Source of the DNA: Lolium rigidum
Taxonomy: Eukaryota > Streptophyta > Magnoliopsida > Poales > Poaceae
DNA length: 64,000 nucleotides
Assembly: GCF_022539505.1 (NCBI RefSeq)
Contig: NC_061513.1
Location: 354,373,696-354,437,695 of the forward strand
Direction: 5' to 3'
Shown: one piece after another, positions 3,212-63,076 of the stretch
How the letters are laid out: each line of letters begins with the position of its first letter
Numbering within the stretch: position 1 is the stretch's first letter
Notes under the pieces: model-generated
The model's database searches: none
The model's input: only the letters and a program-made list of their open reading frames with translations
What the model was told of the DNA's origin: nothing
Translations under genes and position numbers: made by a program

Positions 3212-4485
3212 GGAAAAAAAAGTAGCAAATGAAAAAGACCCCTTATCATGAATTGAGATGGCCTAGAGATTGTCTGCTTAAGTAATTTGGAGTTTGATGT
3301 TCGACGGTTTGTGGTAGGGTTTCATTCTTGTAATCTAGGCTATGGTGCATGTGTTTCTCGAATTTCTTCTAGTACAAAAATATATCGAGGAGTTCCTCCC
3401 CCTCTGGTCTCATTTTTTTTTGGATGTTCGATGGTTTTAACCAATGGGTCTTCTGTTGTGAGTGCCTACCGACATACTGCGAGTATGTCAAGTCCTAACT
3501 TTACCTTTCGGTTAGCTCGGTAAGCCAACTAGATAAAATGAATTAGAAATGGGAAATTAACCGGATAAGTACGAAATGAATTAGAGATGGGAAACTCTAA
3601 AAGTATGCAATAATGTATCTCATGTACATACAAAATCTCAAGTTGAATTTCGTTTTGAAGCTAAACTATGGGTTTCCTCGCTGCATATTTTATAAATTTA
3701 AAGAAAGTAATGTACAAGCCATATGCTAGAGAATAGCATCACGAAAGAAAAGGGAGAAGGCTTTACGCCTCTAATCTAAAACTAGGCACTATACAAAATT
3801 ATTCACCCAGGCAGTGATTAAAAATATGTTGTATTTTGAGAGACACAAAAATAACAAAAAGAAGTGGTTCTAAGTACAGTGATTTCAAAAAAAAAAGAAT
3901 CAGAGTTTGTTACCTTTGTGTAGCTCAAATGAGTGTCACGGTTGTTTTGGCGCTGATTTTTCTAATCCTTGGAGCCAAGATCTGAATTTCACTCAGAGTA
4001 GCGTGTGCAGCCAAGTGCTGTGCCTGGCTGTGCACAGTGCGAGTGATGCAACTTTTGGCCTCATCCGGCCGGCTGGGGCTGCCTTTAATCGCTCGCTTTG
4101 CGGAAAGAGACGCGGCCTTTCACCGTACGCGGGCAGTAGTGTCATGCGATGCACTTGCTGTATGTATCCAGCACACATGCACGGCTCAGTTTACCGCGTG
4201 GTGAAACGCACTTGCACGAATTGAACAGGCCCTGCCCCCCTCGTCGCACTAAACAAAGCGCTTAAACAATCCATCCGCTCGTCCAAACCAAACAAGTACA
4301 TTACGATTGCTGCTTCTGCATCTCCAGCCAGACAGGGACATTCCAGCCCGGAACAAAATCTCACATTGAAAAATATAATCGCAGCACCATGCCGGCCGTC
4401 TCACATGAGATTAGGCATCTCCCTCCACCGGGACGATCCATCGGGTTCTGATCTGTCTATATTGGTCCACGTGGATAGATAGACC
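3212..4485. other. intergenic, nothing recognised
   Basis: Mixed AT-rich and GC-moderate sequence with no supported ORF, RNA gene or terminal-repeat structure. The short plus ORFs at 3287 and 3907 show no domain and no codon bias that I can see. Confidence 0.4.
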
Positions 4486-37539: not shown

Positions 37540-40114
37540 GTTCCGCTCGTCCCGAGCAGGTAAAACGATAACAAAAGATAATTTCTGAAGTGACATGCCA
37601 TCATAACCTTGATCATACTATTTGTAAACATATGTAATGAATGCAGCGATCAAAACAATGGTAATGCCATGAGTAAACAAGTGAATCATAAAGCAAAGAC
37701 TTTTCATGAATAGTACTTCAAGACAAGCATCAATAAGTCTTGCATAAGAGTTAACTCATAAAGCAATAATTTAAAGTAAAGACATTGAAGCAACACAATG
37801 GAAGATTAAGTTTCAGCGGTTGCTTTCAACTTGTAACATGTATATCTCATGGATAATTGTCAATGCAAAGCAATATAACAAGTGCAATAAGCAAGTATGT
37901 AAGAATCAATGCACAGTTCACACAAGTGTTTGCTTCTTGAGGTGGAGAGAAATAGGTGAACTGACTCAACAATAAAAGTAAAAAGAATGGTCCTTCAAAG
38001 AGGAAAGCATCGATTGCTATATTTGTGCTAGAGCTTTTATTTTGAAAACATGAAACAATTTTGTCAACGGTAGTAATAAAGCATATGAGTTATGAAAGTT
38101 ATATCTTACAAGTTGCAAGCCTCATGCATAGTATACTAATAGTGCCCGCACCTTGTCCTAATTAGCTTGGACTACCGGATCTTTGCAATGCACATGTTTT
38201 AACCAAGTGTCACAATGGGGTACCTCCATGCCGCCTCGTACAAAGGTCTAAGGAGAAAGCTCGCATTTTGGATTTCTCGCTTTTGATTATTCTCAACTTA
38301 GACATCCATACCGGGACAACATGGACAACGAGATAATGGACTCCTCTTTAATGCATAAGCATGTGGCAACAATTATTATTCTCATATGAGATTGAGGATG
38401 TGTGTCCAAAACTGAAACTTCCACCATGAATCATGGCTTTAGTTAGCGGCCCAATGTTCTTCTCTAACAATATGCATGCTCCAACCATAAAGGTGGTAGA
38501 TCTCTCTTACTTCGGACAAGACGGACATGCATAGCAACTCACATGATATTCAACAAAGAATAGTTGATGGCGTCCCCGGAAGCATGGTTATCGCACAACA
38601 AGCAACTTAATAAGAGATAAAGTGCATAAGTACATATTCAATACCACAATAGTTTTTAAGCTATTTGTCCCATGAGCTATATATTGCAAAGGTGAATGAT
38701 GGAATTTTAAAGGTAGCACTCAAGCAATTTATTTTGGAATGGCGGAGAAATACCATGTAGTAGGTAGGTATGGTGGACACAAATGGCATAGTGGTTGGCT
38801 CAAGTATTTTGGATGCATGAGAAGTATTCCCTCTCGATACAAGGTTTAGGCTAGCAAGGTTATTTGAAACAAACACAAGGATGAACGGTGCAGCAAAACT
38901 CACATAAAAGACATATTGTAAACATTATAAGACTCTACACCGTCTTCCTTGTTGTTCAAAACTCAATACTAGATGTTATCTAGACTCTAGAGAAACCAAA
39001 TATGCAAACCAAATTAGCAAGCTCTAAGTATTTCTTCATTAATGGGTGCAAAGTATATGATGCAAGAGCTTAAACATGAGCACAACAATTGCCAAGTATC
39101 AAATTATCCAAGACATTTTAGAATTACTACATGTAGCATTTTCCAATTCCAACCATATAACAATTTAACGAAGAAGAAACTTCGCCATGAATACTATGAG
39201 TAGAGCCTAAGGACATATTTGTCCATATGCTACAGCGGAGCGTGTCTCTCTCCCATAAAGTGAATGCTAGGATCCATTTTATTCAAACAAAATAAAAACA
39301 AAAACAAACCGACGCTCCAAGCAAAGTGCATAAGATGTGACGGAATAAAAATATAGTTTCAGGGGAGGAACCTGATAATGTTGTCGATGAAGAAGGGGAT
39401 GCCTTAGGCATCCCCAAGCTTAGACGCTTGAGTCTTCTTAGACTATGCAGGGGTGAACCACCGGGGCATCCCCAAGCTTAGATCTTTCACTCTTCTTGAT
39501 CATAGTGCATCATACTCCTCTCTTGATCCTTGAAAACTTCCTCCACACCAAACTCGAAACAACTCATTAGAGGGTTAGTGCACAATAAAAATTAACATGT
39601 TCAGAGGTGACACAATCATTCTTAACACTTCTGGACATTGCATAAAGCTACTGGACATTAATGGATCAAAGAAATTCATCCAACATAGCAAAAGAAGCAA
39701 TGCGAAATAAAAGGCAGAATCTGTCAAAACAGAACAGTCCGTAAAGATGGATTTTATTAGGCCACCAGACTTGCTCAACTGAAAATGCTCAAATTGAATG
39801 AAAGTTGCGTACATATCTGAGGATCATGCACGTAAATTGGCTTAATTTTCTGAGCTACCTACAGGGAGGTAGACCCAGATTCGTGACAGCAAAGAAATCT
39901 GGAACTGCGCAGTAATCCAAATCTAGTACTTACTTTACTATCAAAGACTTTACTTGGCACAACAAAACTCAAAACTAAGATAAGGAGAGGTTGCTACAGT
40001 AGTAAACAACTTCCAAGACACAAATATAAAATAAAAATACTGTAGTAAAAACATGGGTTGTCTCCCATAAGCGCTTTTCTTTAACGCCTTTCAGCTAGGC
40101 GCAGAAAGTGTAAC

Positions 40115-41045
40115 TCAAGTAACATCGAGAGACGAAGCATCAACATCATAATTTGTTCTAATAATAGAATCATAAGGTAACTTCATTCTCTTTCTAGGGA
40201 AGTGTTCCATACCTTTCTTGAGAGGAAATTGATATTTAATATTACCTTCCTTCATATCAATAGTAGCACCAACGGTTCGAAGAAAAGGTCTTCCCAATAT
40301 AATGGGGCAAGATGCATTGCATTCAATATCCAAGACAACAAAATCAACGGGGACAAGGTTATTGTTAACCATAATATGAACATTATCAACCTTCCCCAAA
40401 GGTTTCTTTTTAGCATTATCAGCGAGATTAACATCCAAATAACAATTTTTCAATGGTGGCAAGTCAAGCATATCATAAACTTTTTTAGGCATAACGTAAA
40501 TACTTGCACCAAGATCACATAAAGCATTACAATCAAAATCTTTGACTCTCATTTTAATGATGGGCTCCCAACCATCCTCTAGCTTTCTAGGAATAGAAGT
40601 TTCAAGTTTTAGTTTCTCTTCTCTAGCTTTTATGAGAGCATTTGTAATATGTTTTGTGAAAGCCAAGTTTACAGCGCTAGCATTGGGACTTTTAGCAAGT
40701 TTTTGCAAGAACTTTATAACTTCAGAGATGTGGCAATCATCAAAATCTAAATCATTACAATCTAAAGCAATGGGATTATCATCCCCAAGGTTGGAAAAAA
40801 TTTCAGCAGCTTTATCACAAGCAGTTTCAGCAGTTTTAGCAGTTTCGTGTAATTTTGCGCGCTTTGCACTAGGAGTAGAAGCATTGCCAACACCAATTAT
40901 TTTACCATTGATAGTAGGAGGTGCAGCAACATGTGAATCATTAGCATTGCTAGTGGTGGTAATAGTCCAAACTTTAGCTACATTTTCCTCTTTAGCTAGT
41001 TTTTCATTTTCTTCTCTATCCCACCTAGCACGCAGCTTCAGCCAT
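40115..41045 (-). pseudogene. Athila-type gag C-terminus and retropepsin
   Basis: The minus strand reads a linker (EKLAKEENVAKVW, PSAKRAKLHETAKTAETA) and then a retropepsin with active-site motif CDLGASIYVMPKKVYDML, followed by NNLVPVDFVVLDIE and the IILGRPFLRTVGATID strand. It ends after KKGMEHFPRKRMKLPYDS, with its stop just before 40,115. The protease would mature Gag particles. The catalytic triplet is D-L-G, as in the older copy at 17,249. From Met 40,708 the 197 codons to the stop are open, so the protease part itself may be intact. The upstream join to gag is frameshifted near 41,045. No reverse transcriptase follows. Confidence 0.75.
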
Positions 41046-46945: not shown

Positions 46946-47434
46946 TCAATCCAAGTTTTTAGGATCAAGAATACCAAGTTCTCCTCTCAAGTTAACAAAG
47001 CGGGCTTCATCCAAAGGCTTAGTGAAAATATCCGCCAATTGGTAGGCTGTTCCCACATGAGTGAGATCAATATCCTTATTGGCAACATGATCACGTAGGA
47101 AGTGATGGCGAATGTCAATATGTTTGGTGCGACAATGTTGAACCGGGTTATTGGCGATCTTAATTGCACTTTCATTGTCACAAAGAAGAGGCACCGTACC
47201 AAGAGACACACCATAGTCTTTCAAGGTTTGCTTCATCCATAACAATTGAGTGCAACAAGATGCCGCGGATATGTATTCGGCTTCGGCGGTGGATAAAGAG
47301 GTGGATTTTTGTTTCTTGGATGACCAACTCACCAATGACCGGCCAATAAATTGGCAAGCCCCGGAGGTAGACTTCCGGTCAACCTTATCACCGGCCCAAT
47401 CGGAATCCGAATAGCCAATGAGTTCAAAGGTTGA
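46946..47434 (-). pseudogene. RNase H domain of SIRE-like pol, detached
   Basis: The minus strand reads IGYSDSDWAGDKVDRKSTSG, then GRSLVSWSSKKQKSTSLST, AEAEYISAASCCTQLLWMK, LLCDNESAIKIANNP, HCRTKHIDIRHHFLRDHV and ADIFTKPLDEARF, ending LGILDPKNLD-stop. The acidic RNase H residues (D in SDSDWAG, E in AEAEY, D in CDNESA) are present. RNase H removes the RNA strand during reverse transcription. It is separated from the rest of pol (59,945 onward) by the 12.5 kb insertion, whose GTTGA duplication lies at its upstream end. Confidence 0.85.
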
Positions 47435-49899
47435 TGTAATGTCCCAGGTTTAGAGACGATCGAGGGGTAGATTTTTGAAAGGGATGTGCATTGCATTGTA
47501 ATTTACGGGGAAATTTCGCGCTTTTAAACAAAAACTGCATCGAAAGGGGAACAAGTTTCTCTCTCGACACCTTACAGGGTTAGGGTTTCGAGAGTGTGAC
47601 AAACTTGCTTCTTTCTAATTAAACTAGGGTTTTGAGAAGAGAGGGGAGAGTTTGCATCCTAACTTAAGTTGCATGATTGAATTCAAACTTAAGTTGAATT
47701 TGAATTTCAAATTCAAACATCAAATAAATATCTCATAAAATTCAATTGTGAGGAAATTCATTAAGTAAATTATAAATAACAAACATTATGAACAATAAAA
47801 AATAAAGTAAAGCTCATTAGAGAAAACTTTGAGCTTTATTGATTAACACACAAGATACATTGTCTTTACAATATTCATAATGGAAATAAATGAATATTAC
47901 AACAACTTACATGAATTAAAAAAAAATCTGAAAAAGAAAAAGAAGAAGAAAATTACAAGTAAATAAAATACATCCTAAACTACTATATCTTTTTCATCTT
48001 GGTCATCACTTTGTTCCTGCACACAATTACAACAAAGGAAATGTTATGCCAAGTGGCATAGCCACTTGGCAGGTTAAAAGAATGGAAAACAGAGTGGATA
48101 ATCTCTAGTCTGCCGAGCTGATCCACTCTCAGCCAAGTTACAAGCCAGATACCAAGAATGTGCACACACACACAGCTAGGCTGCTCACACAGCAGTGTGC
48201 ATGCAGCTAGCACACCACACACACACACAATCGGTGAGTCACCAACGAGCTGCCGAGCCTTGTTGTCGACCGGAGGTGGAGAGGGAGATCATATAAAAAC
48301 CTCTCCAACAGTGAACCCTAGCTCATTCATCGACAGGCAGCTTGGTAAGTCATCAGAGAGCAAGAACACTTAGAACAGGAAGAACACATAGCTAGAACCC
48401 TCATCCAGGAACAGCTCAAGCAAGGAACTGTCTCCGTTGAGAAGTAAACCATGGAGTAGATCAAGCACAAGCCACAAGGAGGAGCAGGGCAAGCTAAGAA
48501 ATCAGCACGAAGCAAAACCTCTACACCAACACACTATTTCTAGGAGCCGGAGTGAGGTATACACCTTAACATGAACAAACCAGATGGTTTTGTTCATAAA
48601 TTGCACAAGCATGATCTCCAAGACACCAACAAGGGTAGAAACCCTATATGTGAGTCATCATATGGCTACCGGCCAAAATGGTGCAAGTGAACAAGAGAGA
48701 AACAAATAGGAAAGCACCTCGGGAACATTGGCTATGCCAAACCAGATGACATAATCAAAGAAATCCAACAAGGGATAATCCTATCTAGCTAGTCGGCTTC
48801 ACTTAGCACCTATAGCCACTACACCATCGGACGGATAGACTATCAAGTGTCTATTCATGTTTATCAACATCAAAGGAAACCGGAAAAACCACAAGGATTC
48901 TTCCAAGTAAAGTATTTCCCAAATCACAAGCAAGCCAACACATGTGGGAGCTACCCTAACGACAAGGAATTGCCGTCGTGGTCACCTCAACCACTATACC
49001 AAATTCCACAGAGAAGCCATGCACTAATATCATCACCCAGATGGGTTCAAAAAGGAGCCAGGATTCCCAACAGATGTTGGCATCCTTCTAGCTCTAACCA
49101 AATCCACTTATATGATCATCACTCGCAAGGCGCTCACATCGAATATCCAAATATCAAGGCAAACTAAGCGAGATAAATGAAGCGAGCAAGCTAATGATGC
49201 ACTGGATCTTGCAGATGACCCAATGGATCATTGCAAGCATCCGCCGATGCTTAGACAAGCACCAAGCACACACAAAGCTAAGCCCGTATGAAGCACAAGC
49301 AAGACCGGTGTGCATCAGTGAGTCACAGTGGAGAGCACACATTTGCTCACAAGCAAGAAATTATAAATTGATCATCAGAGCATCACTAGCTCTTGCTACA
49401 GGTCACCACAGTCTAGCATAGCAACATCACATTGCCCATATAAATAAATTAACCATATAATTGAACAATTGCATCATAGATAAGTGAATAGAGCATTATA
49501 ATTGTATCCAGAAGCACTCCATCAAGGGATGGAGCTGCCAAGTCAAGAACAATGCTCAATTGAGCATGATCATGAATTATAGCACGAGAGATAGCACACC
49601 AGGAGCACCGGCATTTGCCAAAGGCAAGGATCATGCACCATGATCAAGCCAGGGAGTAGTAATTGCTCACACAGAGAGTCGGGAGCAAGATAGCAGCAGC
49701 AGAGTAACAAATGAATAAAGCAAAGCATCACGGCATGCTCATGAGCAAGAGTTCATGAGTTGCAACAGCAAGCTACGAGAGCACAATAGCATAGCACAGC
49801 AGCCGTAATCCATGGCAATTGCACAACGAAGAAAGATACGCATAGCAAGTAGCTAGCACAGCACTAGGGCTAGATTGGCACAAGGCACACAGGGGCGCA

Positions 49900-50460
49900 G
49901 AAGCAACAGCAGCATGGCAGTGCCAGCATCTCCATGAGGAGAGGCAGGCTTGTAACTAGAGCATGGCATAGAGGAGGAGGAAGAAAGGGAGAAGATGGAG
50001 GCGTACTAACCTGGAGCAGCGCGACGGCGTCACCATGGCGGTACGGCGGCACAGCCTGGCCACGACAGCACCAAGCCATGGCCAAGCCAGGCGGTCGCCA
50101 AAGCGCGGAGGCTCCAGCGCAGGCACAGCGAGGCACACGGCCTCGGCATCGGGAGCATCGGCGGCGGCGAACTCGCCGCAAGCACACCACGGCAGCGAGC
50201 GAGACGATGGGGATGCGTCGAGGAAGCGGCGAAACACAGATCGGCGCGGTGGATCTGAAGCGCCGTCGAACGGCGGATCAGATGCGCCGCATCTCGCCGG
50301 CGGCGATGGCCGGAGTCGGCCGAACAATTCGGCGAAGGGAGCGGCGACGCGCGCGTCGCCAGAGCGAGAAGAGAATTAGGGTTCGAGCGCGAGGGGGCGA
50401 CGAAGCGACTGGGTCGGTTGGACCGAGCCCACTGGGCTGGTCCAACCTAACCAGCTCGAC
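49900..50460 (-). promoter_or_regulatory. GC-rich block inside the long LTR
   Basis: CpG-rich sequence opening long frames on both strands (49,934-50,467 plus; 49,870-50,327 minus). On the minus strand it looks like a gene leader: pyrimidine-rich start, GC-rich body and a CTCCAG/GTTAGT donor-like site near 50,013. It could be an LTR leader or promoter island. A coding role is unsupported. Confidence 0.25.
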
Positions 50461-51940
50461 CGCCTGACTGTGGGACCGAGGGGTATTTTGGACATTTCCA
50501 AAATACCCATTTAAATGAGAATTTCCAAGAATTTTATAAAATAAAATACCGCTCTAAAAAAATAAGTAAAAATATGAAAATTAATCAGCAAAAAATTCTC
50601 TACCCAAATAAAATATCAAAGAGAATTTTTGAAGACAATTAAGAATAAGTCCTATTTTGATGATTTAAATAATCATTTAAATCACACACCTAATTTTCTT
50701 TAATGAAAATAAGTCCACTAATGCATTTGGACTTTAAAAACACCTTGACAACATTTCAAGGTTGTATTTTACTTTAAATCAAGTATTCCCAAATTATTCT
50801 TAGTACTAACCTCTTACATGAAATAATAACGACATCGGAAGGGGGGAACAAACCCTAAAAATGGAATCATGCATAATTGCTTCTTTAACCATCGCCCTTA
50901 TCGGACAATGATGCTATTTTTCAGAGACAGAGGACAAGGGTCAGTCCACACCTTCCAACTGCAAAACTTTGCAGTGTTCAGGCAAGTTCATCACTTGCTC
51001 ATGTCATTTGTGTATTTCTATCAAATTACTTGCAAAGTACTATGGTTATCACTATCTATTATATATTAAAAGTATATTACGGGTTAACCAGAAAAAAGGG
51101 AATTACCTAGAAATTACCACAATAATCAGAAACATCCAACCGTTTATTCTGTAGAGTAAAAATTTGTAGCCAATAGATCTGTTGGATAACATTGGTCCTT
51201 ACAAAAAAAAAATTACCCACCAATGCCATTACACATGCGTGCAGATTTCCGATAAAAAAAAAGATATTAGAGTTTCCCGTGTGCCTCTGAAACCCTAAAC
51301 TAATCTACATGCAGACTTACGACTTTCTTCCCTAGCTTGGATCCCATGGTCGCGGCGGCCGGCCGCAATCTCTACGTCAATCCTCCTTGCACTTTGGAGC
51401 TTTCACGTTGTGCATCCCATGTGTTTCAAGCGATGCTGGATGGGCACAGGGCTGCTAAGTACGGATTGGAACTCTCCTCCAAAGAAAACTCTAAAGTAAT
51501 TTGCATCCATACTTCAAATTCTCTCCCGTTTGGATCTCATGGTGGCGTTTCAATTCTCCACCGTTTGGATCGCATAGTTCTCTCCGGTTTGGATCGCATG
51601 GTGGCCGTAGCCGCCGGCCATCTCCACGCCATCCTCCGTGCACCAGCAACGCTCCGACGATGGGCATGCCATAAGTTCGAGTTCCAATCGCTACTGGCAT
51701 GCGGCTGCTAGGTACCCACTTGCCCATCTCTTCCCGAGCTCTACAAGCTTCAGCAACGCCATCCTAACATCTAGCTACAAGTTTTTTTGCAATTCTTGCA
51801 TGCATCTTCTTTGGGTGTAATTTGATGATTTAGTTCATTTATGTAAATGACATCTTCAAAGTTAAAAGAGAGATTTAATTGCATCTTTCCATGGATCGCG
51901 CAGGTAGAACGTGCTGAACTTTTAGGTACGTATGCTGCAT

Positions 51941-52688
51941 GTAAAAGCATATAGCCTGGTAAGTCAAAGTATTTCTCTGAATTTATTTAGTAAGCATGCA
52001 CAAATATGTCACACTCACCATCTTTGTAGAAAATTGGGTGCCTTAATTTGGTGACAGTGTTTTGCAGGCAAGCCACTCTATGGCTTTTCTCAGCCCGATC
52101 CCCATGCACTCTCTCCCTCTTCCGGTCGCATGCTTTTCTCCCTCCTGCGTAGATACTTCAGATCGTGCCAATTTTTTTCCACGACAACCACCATTGTCTA
52201 ACCGATTAAATATATTACATGCTCGCTAGCAGACAGATCAGCTCGCCATACTGCACCAGCCGTGATGCACTGCTACTGGGTATTTTGGGATCTTATTTTC
52301 TGGCTATTTTGTTGTAAAAGCATATAGCCTGGTAAGTCAAAGTATTTCTCTGAATTTATTTAGTAAGCATGCACAAATATGTCACACTCACCATCTTTGT
52401 AGAAAATTTGGTGCCTTAATTTGGTGACAGTGTTTTGCAGGCAAGCCACTCTATGGCTTTTCTCAGCCCGATCCCCATGCACTCTCTCCCTCTTCCGGTC
52501 GCATGCTTTTCTCCCTCCTGCATAGATACTTCAGATCGTGCCAATTTTTTTCCACGACAACCATCATTGTCTAACCGATTAAATATATTACATTCGCTAG
52601 CAGACAAATCAGCTTGCCATACTGCACCAGCCGTGATGCACTGCTACTGGGTATTTTGGGATCTTATTTTCTGGCTATTTTGTTGTAA
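51941..52688 (+). repeat. tandem duplication, period 373 bp
   Basis: Two nearly identical copies, 51,941-52,313 and 52,314-52,688, each starting GTAAAAGCATATAGCCTGG and ending GGCTATTTTGTTGTAA. A few substitutions and a small deletion (CATGCTCGCTAG against CATTCGCTAG) separate them. Confidence 0.9.
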
Positions 52689-54725
52689 CGATCTCAGTAT
52701 CGTGATATCCCTCTTTTTTTGAGCTGTGTAAAGCGACAGGGATGCTTTCCATGCCTTTGCATAAAGATCGCAGCTTTCATGGTACTAATATTTTGACAAG
52801 TTGACTGACTACAAATTTCATATCTAATCTAACCTTTATTGAGTTGATGCAGTCCTGCATCAAAATCCCCACTCTCTGTTTCTTATGAATCATGCTCCCC
52901 GATTTATGGGATCTCACGTTCCATTCCGTTTTGTTGATGCAAGAAAGTAAGTAAGAAAGGTAGAAGAATCCGTCAAGAAGCTGAACATATTTGGGATTTA
53001 TGAAGCTTAAGTCTGAACTTTTTTTTGGCAATAATGTTACTTTTAATCAGTATATTTTTCTATTGCATGGTAATGTTTTACAACAAATAAAATTATTTCC
53101 GCAAATAAGGTCATATTAATTTATTTCATGTACTCATTTTGCATATTTCCACAGGCAGGATGTGCAGAGATGTTGGCGTTGGTCGTTGCCCTAGAATGTC
53201 GATGATGCTAGGAAGACAGTGAATCATTGTTTACAGGAACTCAAGTACACTTACTTAATACGTCCATTATGCTTATGGATCGCTAATATATTTGCATCTT
53301 TGATAAATGTGTCAACAATGTATTATCTGTCATCCAGGTTCACCCTACAGCTATTACTGTTCCAAAGAAATTGTTGCTGGAACTTGGAACATATGCAGAG
53401 TGAGAGGCCTAGAGGGTAACCTCCTTTGTGCCCAGTTTTTTAATTTTATGTATCATTAGTTTCTGCCGTTGTTTTTTTATTTCCAACAGTCTGATTTGCT
53501 AGCATCCTTTGCAATTGCGCTATTATGATGAAATCAATAGCAGCATGCATGTCTACCGGTGGCCAGTGCCTCCATGAATCACCGCCGCCAGCAGCATAGT
53601 GCGATTGAGGTTTGTTTAACCTTGCCAGATGCCGAAATTTCATTGGGTCACCAGCTAAATTGCTGCGCGTGGTTGGCATACTATTTTTTCTTCTATATTT
53701 TTTTTGGCATTCCTTAGCTGTTGGGCAATTAATATTTTTGTACTTTGAAAAGTCCATTAGATATTTGTACTTTTGAAAATACAGACTTTGGATCTTGAGC
53801 GGTGCATGCATATGGTATTTTTGCTTTTGTGTATTCTCTGCCTTTTTAGCTGTTTGGCCATTAAATATTGTTCTACTATTTTCAAAAGGTCATTAGAAAT
53901 TGTTGCATTGTAATATATTTTGAAAGGATAATTTTGGAATCCTTCATGTAGTTCACACATCTGGAACTCGACATTAGGCATAATGATGTTGGTTAGTGCA
54001 ATGGATGATTTTTCGACTTCTTTCATTGTATTAACATGTCGGTATTTGATCTAAAAACATATCTTTATTTTGTTTCACAACTATGCTCTAGCTCTATATA
54101 CTTGCAATGGTTCACATTGGAATCTTGATTGGTCGATCTAATATCGAATTAATATAGGAGACGATGGTTCATGTGTTAATCTTTGTTGGTTAATCGCCGC
54201 TGAACTACTCGCTCGGTCTGCGAGTAAGTGTAATTTTAGATTTTTCCTAGGTAGAAAAAAGTTATGTTTGACCAAATTAACAAAAAAAAAAAATTAAATT
54301 CCGAATAACTTCAGAAAAGTAGCAATATTTATAACATTAAATTAGCATTACTAGATCCGTATTGAAATGTAATTTCATAATATATTAAATCCATGTCAAA
54401 TATATTGCTACCTATTTTATAAAGTTGGACAATTTTAAAATAGTTGACTTAGAACAAAAGTAAAAGTACATTTATTTGTGGTTGGAGGGAGAAAGTAGCC
54501 TCTACGACTAAAACTATGCATGGTTGCACATCTACATGTTCTGCAGCATATAAAGTTCAAGTGTAACTGAATAACTACTCCGATTTACCTGCACAGCAAG
54601 TAACTTCGAGTTTTTTTTTGTTATTAAATGGGTCACTTGGTCAAGGGGTGTTACTTTTGTATGTATCATGTTTTTTTCTGGAGATGATAGACAGCAGCAA
54701 CATAAAAGAAGGAGTAGGAACAAGG

Positions 54726-54903
54726 TAAAGTTACGCTAAATCAGGCATGAGCAATTTACGTGTATATAATTTCCTAGATGGCTAGATAAATATGCTTTGT
54801 GAAGTTGGTATGCATAAAGTTACGCTAAATCAGGCATGAGCAATTTACGTGTATATATACTCCTAGATGGCTAGATAAATATGCTTTGTGAAGTTGGTAT
54901 GCA
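54726..54903 (+). repeat. tandem duplication, period 89 bp
   Basis: Two adjacent copies beginning TAAAGTTACGCTAAATCAGG, differing at a few bases (TATATAATTTCC against TATATATACTCC). Confidence 0.9.
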
Positions 54904-55636
54904 TATAGTTTCTCATGTAAATTCATCTTGATTAAGTTGTAATATAGTTAGTTGCCCATAGTTTCTCTGGCGTCAAGGACCTGCAACAGCAGATCAATCA
55001 TCGATACAAAAGCGCTGAGACCAGAAATCTGCTATTTCGTCGGCTTTTCCATACTATCTAACCCAGACTTTCTCAGTTAGCACATAATACCATCGAGATT
55101 TGATTGGTTGGGGCTTAACCATGTTGTTGGAAATCTTATATTCCTTTATGTAACCAGAAATGACACGTGTTTTCTCAGTTAGCACATAATACTATGTTTT
55201 CTTATCATTCATTATGAACTACTGCTACATCTTAATTTCTGAAAGTAAATAGCCAAATAATACGAAAAATATAATACATTGTTTGTATGATTTTTAATTA
55301 ACTACACATAATTAAAAACAAAACATGTAGCCCGCAAAAAAGTTTTTGATTATATCTTATATCCCAAGGGTAAAGACATGTGCAAGGACACAAAGTATTG
55401 TTTTTATAAGAAAAAATAAATTAGTAGCATGTATACATTTAAAAATGATGTGTTGATCACTGCACTATTACAATTCTAAAAAGATTGGTTCAAGCAACAA
55501 GTTCCTTATAATCTTATTAGATAAAATAAAAAAAATATTTGCCTATTTATATGGACTGTGAAATATATAACACTACGTGATAATCTATGGAACTATGGAT
55601 TTATTTTAGAGTTCCTTTTGAGACATTATAGATGTT

Positions 55637-55656
55637 GCCCTCGCATTTGCGAGGGC
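55637..55656 (+). terminator. Helitron 3' hairpin
   Basis: GCCCTCGCA, TT, TGCGAGGGC: a perfect 9-bp stem just before the CTAG end. This is the replication-termination signal of the element, not a transcription terminator. Confidence 0.85.
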
Positions 55657-57086
55657 CACCTTGCTAGTTGCATAAAAATCAAAACCACTACTTTCATAAC
55701 TATGAATATGACTATGTGGTGGGCAATGGAACCATGGATTGTGTTGATATGGTGGAGGTTCCATTGCACGGGTTTATATCCATCTAGGATTAAACAACAA
55801 ATGTCGCCAAGTGATTCTTGTGCCGTAATACCCGTGTTAACCATAAGATCCGGAGTGGGACGGAGTAGTCAAAAGTGTTTCCACCTCTTGAACATCAACG
55901 GATTCGCTTACAGTAGACGGTTGTATCTTGCGGAGCAATTGGTGGGTGGGGAGCCCCTTCTAATTCCCCACGGTATAGCTGTTGCTTACCGTAGACGGTT
56001 GCTGCTTGCGGAACAATTGGTGGGTGGGGATCCCCTTCTAATTCCCCACGGTAATGTGGTCTATGATGGGTTGCAGCTACCGGCGAAGGAGTTTGGTTAA
56101 CGAGTCCCAAACCGTTGTCGTGGTCGGGGTCCACCCTGAAATTACGGGAATAATGGGACCGACGAGGACCCGTGGTCGGGGTATGCAACAAAGGGTGGGT
56201 GTTCGAGGTAGCGGAGGAACATGATTGGCTAGACCTTATACCGGGCCTCACACCGAAGGAAGTGTGGACGGGAAAGCTGCCCGGTTGGCACCAAGGTTAA
56301 GATCTCTTATGGGTAAAGCAACACACCTCTCGCAGAGTGTAAAGAACCGTGACTGTCACTCCCTGTTCCGGGATTGAGGAACCGCGAACGCGGCCGGAAA
56401 GGAGCTCCATGAAGTTCTAGTAAACCGGTGAAGGCCGACGGACATAGCTCTTTGAAATAAAAGCAACCTCTTGAAGAAATGTTTACCAAAACCTGCATTG
56501 GTATTAGACTTTCCGGTCTAATATCGTAGTTAGTGCATTAAACACCTCTTATCTATAATGAACTTGTTGAGTACGCTCGTACTCATACCACTCTTAAATC
56601 CCATGCTTAGATTGTCCGAATCGTCCGGAGGAGGACTACGACAACAATGAAGGAGCCGAGATCATCGGCTATGATGAACCCGACCTCTCGGAGGTGTTGA
56701 AGGAGTAGACTATCTCATAGTCTACGGATCCGGGAGGCTTCCGGAGGAGAACAAGCTTAGAGATATCCGATAGTAGTAGTAACCGAGCAGCCCGAACTCT
56801 AGTATTTAGCTGCTCGATGAAATAAATGTTTAGTTTAATGAGACTCGGTATTGTAAGTTAAGTTGGGTTCGCCTCGAACCCAGGAGTATTCCTCTTAGGA
56901 CCCAAGAGGAGCTCCAAGATGACATGTGTATGATAGTTGTAATAATAAATGAATGAGTTATGGACCCCGCTATGTTCCGTTGTACTACTCGAGGGATGTA
57001 ATATTTGCGGAATGGTACTTCGTGAATGTTATATCAACGACCGGCATACTACAACATGCAAGTGGTATGCGGTGGTCACCACAGGT

Positions 57087-57098
57087 TGGTATCAGAGC
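57087..57098 (+). other. primer-binding site (initiator tRNA-Met)
   Basis: TGGTATCAGAGC three bases after the LTR end. It fixes the plus orientation of the element and the inner end of the 5' LTR. Confidence 0.85.
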
Positions 57099-57300
57099 CA
57101 AAGCTTTGACCTTAGGTTGGAACCTAGTAAATGGGACCAAACGTTAGGAGTCAAATAGGATTAGTAAAGAATTCTCTAAAAATATGGTGTATATTCAATT
57201 GAGAATACAACAATCATATCTTTTAGTGCGATAATTCTTTATTATCTCTATTATGATGCATTATTACTAATCTCATAATCTTTCTATTTCTACAGCCAAC

Positions 57301-58167
57301 ATGGCAAGTTCACGACCGGGAAGAAACGTGAAAGTTATGGATTCCACACTGAATGAGTACCAAGGAGGACTTGCAGATATCCTACGAGCCATGTTACTGG
57401 AATTTGGGTGCGATTCCCAGATTCCAGTAAAGAAATACATGTTCTATGATGGTCCGGTGTTGGCCAAGTGCAGGGTAGGACTGCGACTCCCCGAATCTAG
57501 GGGAATGAGCGTAGTCATGCCAGCTGGAGAAGCTAGGACAACCAACACAGCTTACCATATAGCTGTTATGAGAGCCATAACCGATATTCGGGAGCATAAG
57601 ACGAAAGAGCTTATGGGTTCCGAATTTACACACATTCCTCATATGGAGGAGGACAATGATCCCATGCCGAACCATTTCAAATATGCCAAAAGCAAACCAG
57701 CCGAAGCAGCCAAATACATGGACAATAGCCGTAACTTCATATCATTACTCTTTCGATTGAATCATCATCCGATAGGAGCAATTGATACGATGCTTAAGGA
57801 ATTCATCGAACCCAAGGAGGTGAGTAGGGGGAAAGAACCTATGGAGAATGTGGTGCACACACCAGTTTATTCAGCTGGTGACTACATCAGTATTGATCCA
57901 CTTGCACGTGAACCTACACCTGTTACACCTGGGAACTATCTGGGTAGTTCCTATGGGGGATACGAGGGTGGAGAGGAATCCGGAAACCACCAGCGTTCTG
58001 AGACTCCTATCGAGAATTCCAGGGGTTGGCGTTGGGGATCGGATACTGGAACTCAAAAATTCTCTACCCAAATAAAATATCAAAGAGAATTTTTGAAGAC
58101 AATTAAGAATAAGTCCTATTTTGATGATTTAAATAATCATTTAAATCACACACCTAATTTTCTTTAA
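57301..58167 (+). CDS. retained N-terminal ORF of the long-LTR element, fused to LTR sequence
   Basis: ATG 57,301 opens 288 codons after a leader of about 200 bp. Residues 1 to about 251 are element-encoded: MASSRPGRNVKVMDSTLNEY, a GGLADILRAMLLEFGCDSQ helix, KKYMFYDGPVLAKCRVGLRL, TNTAYHIAVMRAITDIREHK, and MDNSRNFISLLFRLNHHPIG, then a proline- and glycine-rich tail (REPTPVTPGNYLGSSYGGYE). The last roughly 37 residues, starting near FSTQIKYQREF, are read from the truncated 3' LTR across the deletion junction. By position it should be the gag or first ORF, but I see no capsid motif and no CCHC knuckle, so the family is unrecognised. The true protein end is missing. Confidence 0.6.
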   Translation: MASSRPGRNVKVMDSTLNEYQGGLADILRAMLLEFGCDSQIPVKKYMFYDGPVLAKCRVGLRLPESRGMSVVMPAGEARTTNTAYHIAVMRAITDIREHKTKELMGSEFTHIPHMEEDNDPMPNHFKYAKSKPAEAAKYMDNSRNFISLLFRLNHHPIGAIDTMLKEFIEPKEVSRGKEPMENVVHTPVYSAGDYISIDPLAREPTPVTPGNYLGSSYGGYEGGEESGNHQRSETPIENSRGWRWGSDTGTQKFSTQIKYQREFLKTIKNKSYFDDLNNHLNHTPNFL

Positions 58168-59939
58168 TGAAAATAAGTCCACTAATGCATTTGGACTTTA
58201 AAAACACCTTGACAACATTTCAAGGTTGTATTTTACTTTAAATCAAGTATTCCCAAATTATTCTTAGTACTAACCTCTTACATGAAATAATAACGACATC
58301 GGAAGGGGGGAACAAACCCTAAAAATGGAATCATGCATAATTTCTTCTTTAACCATTGCCCTTATCGGACAATGATGCTATTTTTCAGAGACGAGAGGAC
58401 AAGGGTCAGTCCACACCTTCCAACTGCAAAACTTTGCAGGTGTTCGAGCAAGTTCATCACTTGCTCATGTCATTTGTGTATTTCTATCAAATTACTTGCA
58501 AAGTACTATGGTTATCACTATTGCATAAAAATCAAAACCACTACTTTCATAACTATGAATATGACTATGTGGTGGGCAATGGAACCATGGATTGTGTTGA
58601 TATGGTGGAGGTTCCATTGCACGGGTTTATATCCATCTAGGATTAAACAACAAATGTCGCCAGTGATTCTTGTGCCGTAATACCCGTGTTAACCATAAGA
58701 TCCGGAGTGGGACGGAGTAGTCAAAAGTGTTTCCACCTCTTGAACATCAACGGATTCGCTTACCGTAGACGGTTGTATCTTGCGGAGCAATTGGTGGGTG
58801 GGGAGCCCCTTCTAATTCCCCACGGTATAGCCGTTGCTTACCGTAGACGGTTGCTTGCTTGCGGAACAATTGGTGGGTGGGGATCCCCTTCTAATTCCCC
58901 ACGGTAATGTGGTCTATGATGGGTTGCAGCTACCGGCGAAGGAGTTTGGTTAACGAGTCCCAAACTGTTGTCGTGGTCGGGGTCCACCCTGAAATTACGG
59001 GAATAATGGGACCGACGAGGACCCGGGGTCGGGGTATGCAACAAAGGGTGGGTGTTCGAGGTAGCGGAGGAACATGATTGGCTAGACCTTATACCGGGCC
59101 TCACACCGAAGGAAGTGTGGACGGGAAAGCTGCCCGGTTGGCACCAAGGTTAAGATCTCTTATGGGTAAAGCAACACACCTCCGCAGAGTGTAAAGAACC
59201 GTGACCTGTCACTCCCTGTTCCGGGATTGAGGAACTGCGAACGCGGCCGGAAAGGAGCTCCATGAAGTTCTAGTAAACCGGTGAAGGTCGACGGACATAG
59301 CTCTTTGAAATAAAAGCAACCTCTTGAAGAAATGTTTACCAAAACCTCGCATTGGTATTAGACTTTCTCGGTCTAATATCGTAGTTAGTGCATTAAACAC
59401 CTCTTATCTATAATGAACTTGTTGAGTACGCTCGTACTCATACCACTCTTAAATCCCATGCTTAGATTGTCCGAATCGTCCGGAGGAGGACTACGACAAC
59501 AATGAAGGAGCCGAGATCATCGGCTATGATGAACCCGACCTCTCGGGAGGTGTTGAAGGAGTAGACTATCTCATAGTCTACGGATCCGGGGAGGCTTCTG
59601 GAGGAGAACAAGCCTAGAGATATCCGATAGTAGTAGTAACCGAGCAGCCCGAACTCTAGTATTTAGCCGCTCGATGAAATAAATGTTTAGTTTAATGAGA
59701 CTCCGGTATTGTAAGTTAAGTTGGGTTCGCTCGAACCCAGGAGTATTCCTCTTAGGACCCAAGAGGAGCTCCAAGACGACATGTGTATGATAGTTGTAAT
59801 AATAAATGAATGAGTTATGGACCCTGCTATGTTCTGTTGTACTACTCTGAGGGATGTAATATTTGCGAAATGGTACTTCGTGAATGTTATATCAACGACT
59901 GGCATACTACAACATGCAGTGGTATGCAGGGTCACCACA
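58055..59939 (+). repeat. 3' LTR, 5'-truncated
   Basis: Matches 50,587-51,054 followed directly by 55,668-57,083, so it lacks the Helitron and the first roughly 3.15 kb of the LTR. The junction with the internal domain has 10 bp of shared sequence (AAAAATTCTC). Confidence 0.85.
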
Positions 59940-59944
59940 GTTGA

Positions 59945-60573
59945 CCCCTTTGGATACCATAGCCCGAGAGTAGGAGTGAGAACAAGGTATCTTAGAATCC
60001 GTTTGACCGCCATTAAATGGCTCTCCTTGGGAGCGGATTGAAAACGAGCACACATCCCTACACTTAGCATGATATCCGGCCTAGAGGCACAAAGGTAGAG
60101 CAAGGATCCTATCATGGAGCAGTATACCTTTATGTCCACATCCTTCTCACCGCCACATGAGCCAAGTTGCCCCTTTACGGGCATGGGTGTCTTCATTGGG
60201 CTTGCATTGGTCATGTTGAATTTCTTGAGCATGTCCTTCACATACTTTTCTTGAGAGATGAAGGTGCCTTTTGCAAGTTGCCTCACTTGGAAGCCTAGGA
60301 AGAACTTCAACTCTCCCATCATGGACATCTCAAATTTCCTAGTCATCAATAGCTCAAAAGCTTTGTTATGATTGGGGTTAGTTCCACCAAAGATAATATC
60401 ATCAACATATATATGACATATAAATAGGCCACCCCTTTAACCCGTTTGGTGAAAAGGGTGGAATCGACCGTACCCATGCAAAACCCATCATGTAGTAAGA
60501 AATCCCTAAGGAACTCATACCAAGAACGTGGAGCTTGCTTGAGACCGTAGAGTGCCTTATGGAGTAAATACAC
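59945..60573 (-). pseudogene. SIRE-like pol: reverse transcriptase C-terminal part
   Basis: The minus strand reads [20 protein letters not shown], then in another frame [16 protein letters not shown] (the Y-V-D-D catalytic motif, near 60,395), MSMMGELKFFLGFQVRQL, KYVKDMLKKFNMTNASPMKT, GSLLYLCASRPDIMLSVGM and MAVKRILRYLVLTPTLG, up to WYPKGS at the insertion. It polymerises the element's DNA. Frameshifts near 60,575 and 60,420 break it. Its natural continuation is at 47,434. Confidence 0.85.
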
Positions 60574-62790
60574 GTGGTTGGGTCGGCATGGGTCTTCGAA
60601 ACCCGGGGTTGAGCCACATATGCGGTTTCTTTTAGAGGGCCATTCAAAAATGCACTTTTCACATCCATTTGATATAGTTTGAAATTGTGGAAAGATGCAA
60701 ATGCAAGCAAAAGACGAATAGCTTCAAGACGGGCTACCGGCGCAAAGGTATCCTCAAAATCCATACCTTCTATTTGGGCAAACCCTTGCGCCACTAACCT
60801 TGCTTTGTTTCGTATGACAATGCCATTCTCATCTTGCTTGTTCTTGAATACCCATTTGGTCCCAATAACATTGATGCGATGATCTTTGGGTCTCTCAACT
60901 AGAGACCACACTTCATTACGAGTGAAAGACTCCAATTCTTCTTGCATGGCAATTACCCAATCCGGATCAACCAAGGCTTCATGTACCTTGAGTGGTTCAA
61001 AACTAGACACAAAAGCATGGTGTTGACAATAAGTGATAAGTAATGCATGGTGTCTACGAGTTACCACTCCTCTTGAGATGCTACCAAGGACATGATCTAC
61101 TTTCATGTCACTTGCCCTTGTAGCGGCCTTGATCTTCCGAATGGTTCCTTCATGATCAATGAATTCATCTCTTGCTAGTGCTTGATCATGAGGGACCACT
61201 TGAGATTGAACATGAGTTGAGGATGTTTCTTGATCATCATCATGGTCTTGTTCCGTGGGATGAGGACTTTCTTCTTGTTCTTCGGAATGTGACTCATCTT
61301 GAGTGGAGGATGGTTCTTGAGTTGCACTTGATGGTTCGGCTTGAGTTGAGCTAGGCTCCACTTGAGCAGTGCTTGATACTTCTATTCCATCATCTTGATC
61401 ATCACTATGAATTTCCATGGGCCGAATGTGTCCAATGCCCATATGCTTGATGGCACTAGATGGATCATCATCATTACCTGCAACACATGGAACAAATTGC
61501 TCCACTTGGGAGCCATTATCCTCCAAGAACTCCACGTCACAAGATACTTCAATAGTCCCGGTGGACCGGTTGTAGTACCTATAGGCGTGAGAGTTCTCCG
61601 CATAACCAACAAATATGCCCTCTATGGTTCTAGTTTCAAATTTACCGAGCTTTCCTTTGTTGTTCTTAACAAGGCATTTGCATCCAAAGACACGAATGTA
61701 CATGACATTAGGCTTGTTACCGGTAAGAAGCTCGTATGGAGTTTTGTTGTGGAGGGGACGGAGGAAGAGCCGGTTGGAGTAGTGGACGGCCGTACAGATG
61801 GCTTCTCCCCAAAAGTTGTGGGGTGAGTTGAATTCACTCAACATGGTTCTTGCCATCTCAATGATAGTCCGGTTCTTCCTTTCAACAACACCATTTTGTT
61901 GAGGGGTGTATGGTGCCGAAAACTCATGCTTGATGCCCTCATCATCGACAAACTCTCGCATGGTGTAGTTCTTGAACTCGGTGCCATTGTCGGTTCTTAT
62001 CGCCTTGATCTCGGATTCATACATACGTTGAGCTTTCTTGGCAAAGATGATGAATTCCCTATGGGTCTCGTCCTTAGACTTAAGGAGAAAGACCCAAGAG
62101 TATCTTGTGTAATCATCAACAATGACGAGTCCATATTTGCTCCCACCAAGAGTATCATAATGTGATGGCCCAAAGAGATCCAAATGAAGGACCTCCAAAG
62201 GCCTAGATGTGGTGACGATACTCTTGATAGGATGTCTCTTCTTGAGTTGCTTTCCGGCTACACATGCACTGCAAACACGATCTTTCTCAAAAGAAATGCC
62301 GGTTAGTCCCACAATGTGTTCACCCTTTAGGAGTTGTTTGAGATTCCTCATGTTGACATGACAAAGGCGGCGATGCCACAACCAACCTTCGTCATGCTTG
62401 GTCGCCATTAGACATGTGGAGTGAGAGGAGCTCTCTTTCGAGAGGTCAACCACGTAAAGGTTGTTCTCCACATATCCAACGAGGACCAATTTGAGATTGT
62501 CACTCCTAAAGACTTTCACACAATAACTAGTAAAATATGAATTGTAACCGGCATCGGCAAGATGATATATAGAAAGTAAGTTATAGCCAAGGGATTCAAC
62601 AAGCATAACCGTCTCAAGGCACAAGTCCTTAGAGATTGCTACCTTGCCATACCCAAGTACCTTTCCCTTTGAGTTATCACCAAAGGTAATGCTTGACTTC
62701 TTGTTGATATCTTCAATGAATTGATCAAGCACACCTCTTCCTCCGGTCATATGATTGGTGCATCCACTATCAAACACCCATTTTGGACCA
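60402..62790 (-). pseudogene. SIRE-like pol: protease, integrase, reverse transcriptase N-terminal part
   Basis: The minus strand is open for nearly 2.4 kb. In order: protease motif [14 protein letters not shown] at the upstream end; integrase finger [18 protein letters not shown] then CSACVAGK; catalytic core [16 protein letters not shown] (first Asp), [12 protein letters not shown] (second Asp) and [13 protein letters not shown] (Glu); a variable acidic, serine- and glutamate-rich linker; and reverse transcriptase with [29 protein letters not shown] and [13 protein letters not shown] (first catalytic Asp). All integrase residues are kept. A frameshift near 60,590 ends the frame, and the real protein continues in the neighbouring frame. 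The order integrase before reverse transcriptase identifies Ty1-copia. Confidence 0.9.
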
Positions 62791-63076
62791 CCGGAGGAAT
62801 ATCCCTACAAAATCAAGTAGAGGATTTAGGAACCCATCGATTAATGGGTTCCTTTGCAATGGCAACAATATCTTTTGGTACCCAAATTGAGTACCCTCTA
62901 TAAGCATAGCCATTAGGAGGGCCAACATAGTTAGCATAGACATCACCATAATAATCAACAAATAATGCATAGTGATCGTTTGGCCCCGTGCGGTCACCAC
63001 TAGTGGCTTTGCCCTTTGAGGCTTTGCCATTATTAGTGACCTTCTTGTTCTTATCTTGAGCGGGTTTCTCCTTGTT
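62791..63076 (-). pseudogene. gag-pol linker of the SIRE-like element
   Basis: The minus strand reads NKEKPAQDKNKKVTNNGKAS, HYALFVDYYGDVYANYVGPP, YSIWVPKDIVAIAKEP and INRWVPKSST before a TGA near 62,812. The frame then changes to the protease frame. The W-V-P-K repeats are typical of the stretch just before the protease in this lineage, from memory. A TAA at 63,077 separates it from the coiled-coil ORF. Confidence 0.6.

Follow-up and report, generated by a model that had tools for sequence, protein, structure and literature searches.

The locus considered here raises two questions: whether a 4613-bp unit at 51055-55667, within the 5' LTR of a long-LTR retrotransposon of Lolium rigidum, is a Helitron, and what it and its relatives indicate about where such elements insert. 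Positions are those of the window, by which we mean the whole stretch of 64,000 nucleotides that was analysed. We regard the unit, with a probability of about 0.95, as a non-autonomous Helitron that inserted later than its host, at a target of the form A/TT with an A-run roughly 7 to 12 bases downstream (a slash marks the insertion point throughout), and that belongs to a grass-type family of which at least 256 5' ends can be recognised. In kind, it is an ordinary new member of the Helitrons. As a nested insertion, it is a clean and datable instance of a young element, and its ends can be used to search for the other members of a family with a few hundred recognisable copies; the data on targets are of greater importance than the nesting.

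The Helitron, its ends and its empty site

The following features delimit the element and its site.

51055..55667, + strand: Helitron, 4613 bp, no Rep/helicase found (empty sister LTR; ends common to genome copies)
51055..51254, + strand: conserved 5' terminal region, starting TCTATTATATATTAAAAGTA (41 scored genome matches among 526 candidates, 76-100% identity)
55637..55656, + strand: subterminal 3' hairpin GCCCTCGCATTTGCGAGGGC, 7 bases before CTAG (fold z -5.3; compensated changes in 24 aligned copies)
55664..55667, + strand: terminal CTAG (sequence)
47435..57083, + strand: host 5' LTR, 5036 bp without the Helitron (TG...CA ends, target duplication, primer-binding-like site after it)
58055..59939, + strand: host 3' LTR, 5' part missing (alignment with the 5' LTR)
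58508..58545, + strand: empty site, in the sister 3' LTR, with the insertion between 58520 and 58521 and AAA starting 8 bases downstream (alignment)

The layout, TC ... GC-rich hairpin ... CTAG flanked by A and T, is that of a canonical Helitron: the 5' TC lies at 51055 and the 3' CTRR is the CTAG at 55664-55667, insertion between A and T occurred without target duplication (as seen from the empty site and the copies), the 16-20-nt palindrome expected near the 3' end is here 20 nt long and 11 bases from the end, and dispersed copies share the ends (a 29-base 5' pattern is present 256 times). A Rep/helicase gene, which would mark an autonomous Helitron, was not found inside the element among the internal frames scanned, 10 of the 15 that reach 60 aa. 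Assignment to the Helentrons, defined in the part of PMC4067079 available to us by a TT target and a variable terminal T, was rejected on the A/T target and the TC and CTAG ends.

The junctions read ...GTTATCACTA/TCTATTATATATTAAAAG ... CCCTCGCATTTGCGAGGGCCACCTTGCTAG/TTGCATAAAAATC, with exact coordinates. At the equivalent point, 58520/58521, the 3' LTR is uninterrupted and reads ...GTTATCACTATTGCATAAAAATC; the joined 20+20-base flanks of the Helitron recur at 58501. An earlier, sequence-only reading, which proposed a Helitron with its empty site preserved in the sister LTR, is thus upheld on both points by the terminal structure, the read-through of the 3' LTR and the genome copies. It also held that the ends were base-exact without a homologue; the coordinates are right, but the junction slides by 1 base (T), and from the empty site by itself the ends are known to within 1 bp, an ambiguity resolved by the convention of TC and CTAG ends together with the genome copies.

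Copies with ends elsewhere, which that reading had named as grounds for rejection, were sought with the first 200 bp: 37 of the 41 scored matches begin at base 1 of the Helitron, and the remaining 4 have small end changes or are a second piece. The 29-base 5'-end pattern occurs 256 times in the genome, against 0 for the control. Twenty-five copies, the window's included, were read end to end, all ending in the hairpin and CTAG/T, an agreement that is partly built in because 24 of the 25 3' ends (all but that of L022, located from the host flank) come from the window's copy or were picked up by similarity to its last 60 bases. No 3' end was obtained for L009, L011, L023, L027 and L037, and L025 enters masked bases. 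An A precedes the 5' end in 37 of 40 copies, the exceptions being L027 (T), L034 (T) and L039 (G).

The hairpin at 55637-55656 has a 9-bp stem with 2 bases between; in the folded form 4 bases are unpaired. Folded as DNA, the last 50 bases give -11.6 kcal/mol, which none of 200 shuffles equalled; the first 100 bases of the element have no stable fold (z 0.39). Over both strands of the window, a 7-9-bp hairpin followed by CTRRT within 12 bases occurs three times, once here and otherwise in an AT-rich palindrome present in both LTR copies. Among the 24 aligned copies, in which hairpin changes are compensated, pairing is kept in 99.5% of cells and the covariation score was reached by none of 500 shuffles; counting against this, the pairs altered on both sides number 2, equalled in 18 of 500 shuffles. 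Searching the literature for the hairpin letters gave only two unrelated papers of primer type.

In line with established Helitron biology, a Rep/helicase encoded elsewhere would recognise the 5' terminus and the 3' hairpin with CTAG, and one strand would be copied or peeled and then joined, with no target duplication, between A and T. The interior is changing cargo, and the retained parts are the ends and the hairpin. The genome has 150 scored Helitron_like_N places among 378 candidates, none of the 150 falling in the window when checked by eye. A comparison of 100 of the 256 5' ends with the 59 scored places on C1-C3 gave a nearest distance of 21.7 kb and revealed no autonomous partner sharing these ends.

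Target preference and probable reuse of a single base

Helitrons are usually described as requiring an AT dinucleotide only. Over 21 distinct sites of the present family, the target goes beyond AT to A/TT with an A-run at about +7 to +12; T follows the insertion point at all 21 and also occupies +2 at 19. Moreover, at 16 places the family's 5' end sits on one and the same base of a gag-protease coding repeat, and the four of these copies that were read fully (L020, L022, L028 and L031) have unrelated interiors, implying independent insertions. We incline to the view that the family has real sequence-specific targeting, such that its members hit the same base of the repeat independently and the transposase reads an extended target (A/TT, the downstream A-run and probably more), not any AT.

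It is rather improbable that a single ancestral insertion was instead inherited with the repeat copies and its interior exchanged later. The same 5' junction recurs at 16 places, of which 12 were read no further and some may be duplicates, and L028 and L031 have flanks that match at 93-96%. Against this, the four fully read copies have at most a 187-column match in common, at the 5' end (E 1e-6), and their interiors recur at other sites, that of L028 in L015 and that of L022 in L024, L026, L032 and L038; these therefore moved as whole Helitrons. Estimates for coincidental shared-base hits reach 0.35 at their most permissive and, because abundance and site numbers were assumed, are not taken as proof. 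If targeting is indeed specific, repeated use of one repeat base offers a natural experiment for mapping Rep/helicase recognition.

The barley Helitrons with asymmetric targets described in PMC5738225, as far as that account was available, likewise insert between A and T with an A-run about 8 bp downstream. By comparison, the A-rich zone of the present family is broader (+7 to +12) and its T at +2 strong (19/21), and the one-base reuse is absent from the same part of the account. The accessible parts of PMC3060143 and PMC6911290 held nothing further on Helitron targets.

Order of events and age

The host supplies the order of events through the features below.

47430..47434, strand not assigned: target duplication GTTGA, left (sequence)
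59940..59944, strand not assigned: target duplication GTTGA, right (sequence)
57087..57098, + strand: primer-binding-like site TGGTATCAGAGC (sequence), presumably of initiator-Met type
57301..58054, + strand: gag-like open frame of the host, continuing into the shortened 3' LTR (37 of 340 candidates are relatives)

Among these relatives, three are named Lolium multiflorum; the gag-like frame itself has no Pfam match. The Copia frame continues on both sides, which counts towards the preferred explanation. A single 5-bp duplication, GTTGA, encloses both LTRs, and the Helitron is therefore later than the host element, as the sequence-only reading had supposed from the empty sister LTR. The LTRs differ at 19 of 1875 sites, which, on an assumed substitution rate, places the insertion at most ~0.4 My ago.

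It is very unlikely that the Helitron was present in the host before integration and that the 3' LTR then lost it, whether through precise excision or through gene conversion by an empty relative. The 3' LTR is rearranged: it lacks its 5' part, and most of the internal part of the host is also missing. However, both LTRs are copied from one template and so were alike at the start, precise excision is not the usual outcome for Helitrons, and divergence is similar to the left and right of the insertion (K 0.0087 and 0.0107), with no converted tract evident. An assembly chimera is likewise very unlikely. Between the LTRs, 15 one-base indels stand against 19 substitutions, which suggests residual read errors in this assembly, but the joins, like those of other copies, coincide exactly with TC and CTAG and lie between A and T, and the LTR is continuous on either side.

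Cargo and relation to known Helitrons

Three internal features were found.

51940..52688, + strand: 372-bp tandem duplication, missing from L010 (comparison with L010)
53865..54518, strand not assigned: 654-bp segment missing from L010, holding a weak inverted repeat (comparison with L010)
54726..54903, + strand: 89-bp tandem duplication

The two duplications were tried as clocks and set aside as not significant (P 0.07 and 0.58). The weak inverted repeat, which scores 51 against a best of 44 over 100 shuffles, may be an old MITE. Copy interiors are mostly unlike that of the window's Helitron, the same cargo being present in L010 (82%). The proposal that ends and cargo together define a family thus holds for the ends, which extend it, but the 4.6-kb cargo is confined to a small subgroup (L010, with L009 and L011 in part).

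In the ten scanned frames nothing exceeded the curated Pfam cut-off, with two weak chance matches (E 0.029 and 0.12), and a search gave no support to two seemingly RNase H-like peptides. Rfam over 47400-60000 (0 matches) and a plasmid collection gave no match. One cargo ORF has no homologue among 50 candidates; another matches one metagenome ORF (one of two candidates), at 87% over 52 aa with a weaker second block.

The non-autonomous Helitrons of Lolium perenne and Festuca pratensis (Lp-psGI), as described in the available part of PMC2702305, are alike in TC...hairpin...CTAG, the A/T target and lack of Rep/helicase. Their hairpin-to-CTAG distance is 7 to 9 bases, against 7 here, and two of their seven hairpin types are 20-21 bp, against 20 bp; the window hairpin differs from Type 1, the one type whose letters were compared, and no GIGANTEA cargo was recognised in the window Helitron. 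Maize helA and helB, in the part of PMC3288121 available, likewise have TC/CTAG ends, a GC-rich hairpin and changing interiors. Membership of either was rejected on the loose patterns published there, the 3' pattern being absent from the window and the 5' pattern from 51055; the 5' end fits helB only if one extra spacer base is allowed.

The insertion and its ends

The sequence-only reading had proposed that the 5′ LTR of a long-LTR retrotransposon holds a 4613-bp Helitron running from TC to CTAG at 51055–55667, and that the sister 3′ LTR passes uninterrupted through the same point; both proposals are borne out. In the 5′ LTR, ...TTATCACTA is followed by the 4613-bp insert, which starts with TCTATTATATATTAAAAG and finishes with CACCTTGCTAG, and then by TTGCATAAAAATC; the empty site in the 3′ LTR reads ...TTATCACTATTGCATAAAAATC with no intervening sequence, the joined Helitron flanks matching at 58501. 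The further claim that the empty site makes the ends base-exact holds in part: the junction is located, but it slides by one base, so that the empty site alone cannot tell TC...CTAG from C...CTAGT. The former was chosen through Helitron convention and other genome copies.

The genome (2.438 Gb, 1764 contigs) was searched with the first 200 bases of the Helitron, and 41 rows were scored out of 526 first-look candidates. Two of these rows are one copy, giving 40 copies with the window's included. The start at 51055 is reproduced elsewhere, 37 of the 41 rows beginning at base 1; L024, L034 and L036 have small end changes, and L032 is a second piece. An A precedes the 5′ end in 37 of the 40 copies (T in L027 and L034, G in L039). 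DNA was inspected at all 39 other copies, as 30 long stretches and nine of 101 bases. Agreement at the 3′ end is partly built in, because most ends, the CTAG of 23 of the 30 long stretches, were located by their similarity to the final 60 bases of the window's copy; in L022 the 3′ end was found from the host flank, and the hairpin and CTAG are present there too. Among the long stretches, no CTAG end was found in L009, L011, L023, L027 and L037, and L025 passes into masked bases. With the window's there are thus 25 complete copies, of 2.7 to 9.0 kb. The genome has 256 matches to a pattern for the first 29 bases, and 0 to the reversed control.

The features match those given for canonical Helitrons in PMC4067079 and for Lolium and Festuca Helitrons in PMC2702305, and this nested insertion is ordinary in kind. 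The end patterns that PMC3288121 gives for maize helA or helB do not fit, and the hairpin is not the Lolium Type 1 hairpin of PMC2702305. Copy L018 carries, upstream of its true end (oriented 3695–3716), a second hairpin-like end with no CTAG, resembling the maize pseudo-termini of PMC3288121. A literature search that covered few subscription papers showed neither these ends nor a reused Helitron target base, a weak negative.

The host retrotransposon and the age of the insertion

Features of the host element
47435–57083, 5′ LTR, TGTAATG start and CACCACA end, 5036 bp without the Helitron
57087, PBS-like TGGTATCAGAGC, after the 5′ LTR
57301, start of the gag-like open frame, whose relatives include sequences named Lolium multiflorum

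At 58055 the internal part joins LTR sequence corresponding to 50591 onward, and the element thus lacks both the far end of its internal region and the beginning of its 3′ LTR. GTTGA stands at both outer edges, and a Copia reading frame interrupted by the element resumes on either side, so both LTRs come from one insertion. The split Copia-type pol (RVT_2, rve and related domains) lies on the minus strand at 59945–62804 and 46950–47429.

When 50591–51054 plus 55668–57083 is compared with 58055–59939, 19 of 1875 sites differ (16 transitions, 3 transversions), and there are 15 one-base indels. At a rate of 1.3e-8 per site per year, this divergence puts an upper bound of about 0.39 million years on the age of the Helitron. 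So many one-base indels beside 19 substitutions exceed the expectation from mutation alone, a hint of residual assembly errors; if these are present, the true age is lower.

The hairpin, the cargo and transposition

The 3′ end forms a strong fold (z -5.3). In an alignment of 24 3′ ends (L022 left out; 21 distinct rows), pairing is kept in 99.5% of cells, with compensated changes from U-A to G-C in seven rows and from G-C to U-A in one. No shuffle of 500 matched the covariation score (0.145, vs at most 0.020 for slid structures), and 18 of 500 matched the count of pairs altered on both sides. From these aligned ends, the hairpin looks to be maintained as a structure.

Among the 23 other complete copies compared, L010 alone matches across most of the window's Helitron (77% covered; 2765 of 3360 aligned columns alike). 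Two parts are absent from L010, the tandem duplication of 372 bp and the 654-bp segment at 53865–54518. L012, L013, L014 and L019 have 170–330 internal bases in common with the window's copy, and the incomplete L009 and L011, whose 5′ flank is that of L010, also share interior. No domain match over cut-off was obtained for the 10 scanned out of 15 internal open frames that are 60 aa or longer. A metagenome ORF, P0038, matches adjacent cargo stretches within 53364–53628, minus strand (one at 87% over 52 aa, the other at 61% over 38 aa), so a portion of the cargo occurs elsewhere.

Helitrons move through the Rep/helicase of an autonomous element acting on both ends. The ends, hairpin, target and timing are observed here; the mechanism itself is most likely that of established biology. 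The Rep/helicase would recognise both ends, and one strand would be copied or peeled and then joined at the target. Genome-wide, 150 of 378 candidates for Helitron_like_N were scored, each over the curated cut-off and many in open frames of more than 1000 aa; visual inspection of these 150 placed none inside the window. As to an autonomous partner, the nearest of 100 listed 5′ ends is 21.7 kb from the 59 scored Helitron_like_N places on contigs C1–C3.

Target preference and repeated use of one base

Target sequences were compared at 21 distinct sites from 24 complete copies, with L028, L031 and L038 dropped as repeated sites and L022 outside the set. An A precedes the insertion at 20 sites, T stands at +1 in 21 and at +2 in 19, and an A-rich zone extends from +7 to +12. 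AA starting at +7 to +9, offsets picked after inspection, occurs at 17 of 21 sites, compared with 0.22 across every A|T step in the window (P about 1e-8) and 0.25 across the steps whose AT content is similar (P about 1e-7). The barley rule that AAA begins 8 bp downstream of A-T (PMC5738225), set beforehand, holds at 4 of 21 sites (background 0.036, P 0.006); leaving out the site in the window gives 3 of 20 (P 0.03).

Four Helitrons, L020, L022, L028 and L031 (4687, 2959, 5328 and 2711 bp), two of them on the large contig C1 and one each on the large contigs C6 and C7, are inserted at the identical base, CAACATNATAA|TTTGTTCTAATAAT, of one repeat, whose opposite strand codes for Retrotrans_gag and aspartic-protease domains. 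The mutual matches of the four Helitrons are confined to near the 5′ end, at most 187 columns (E 1e-6). The interior of L028 is also found in L015, and that of L022 in L024, L026, L032 and L038, all at other sites. Genome-wide there are 16 occurrences of the filled 5′ junction, against 0 of the control, and four of these copies were compared in full. Of the 100 listed 5′ ends, 6 sit at the shared base. In an empty copy of the repeat at L037 the frame, by eye, crosses the site.

Another empty copy of the repeat site lies within the window at 40046–40297 (A40151|T40152). In a second repeat, L021 and L038, with unrelated interiors, both sit at one and the same base. None of the nine 101-base stretches has its insertion at either of these sites. 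Judged by alignment of its 5′ flank, L023 is inserted in the gag-protease repeat, some 214 bp away from the base that L020, L022, L028 and L031 have in common.
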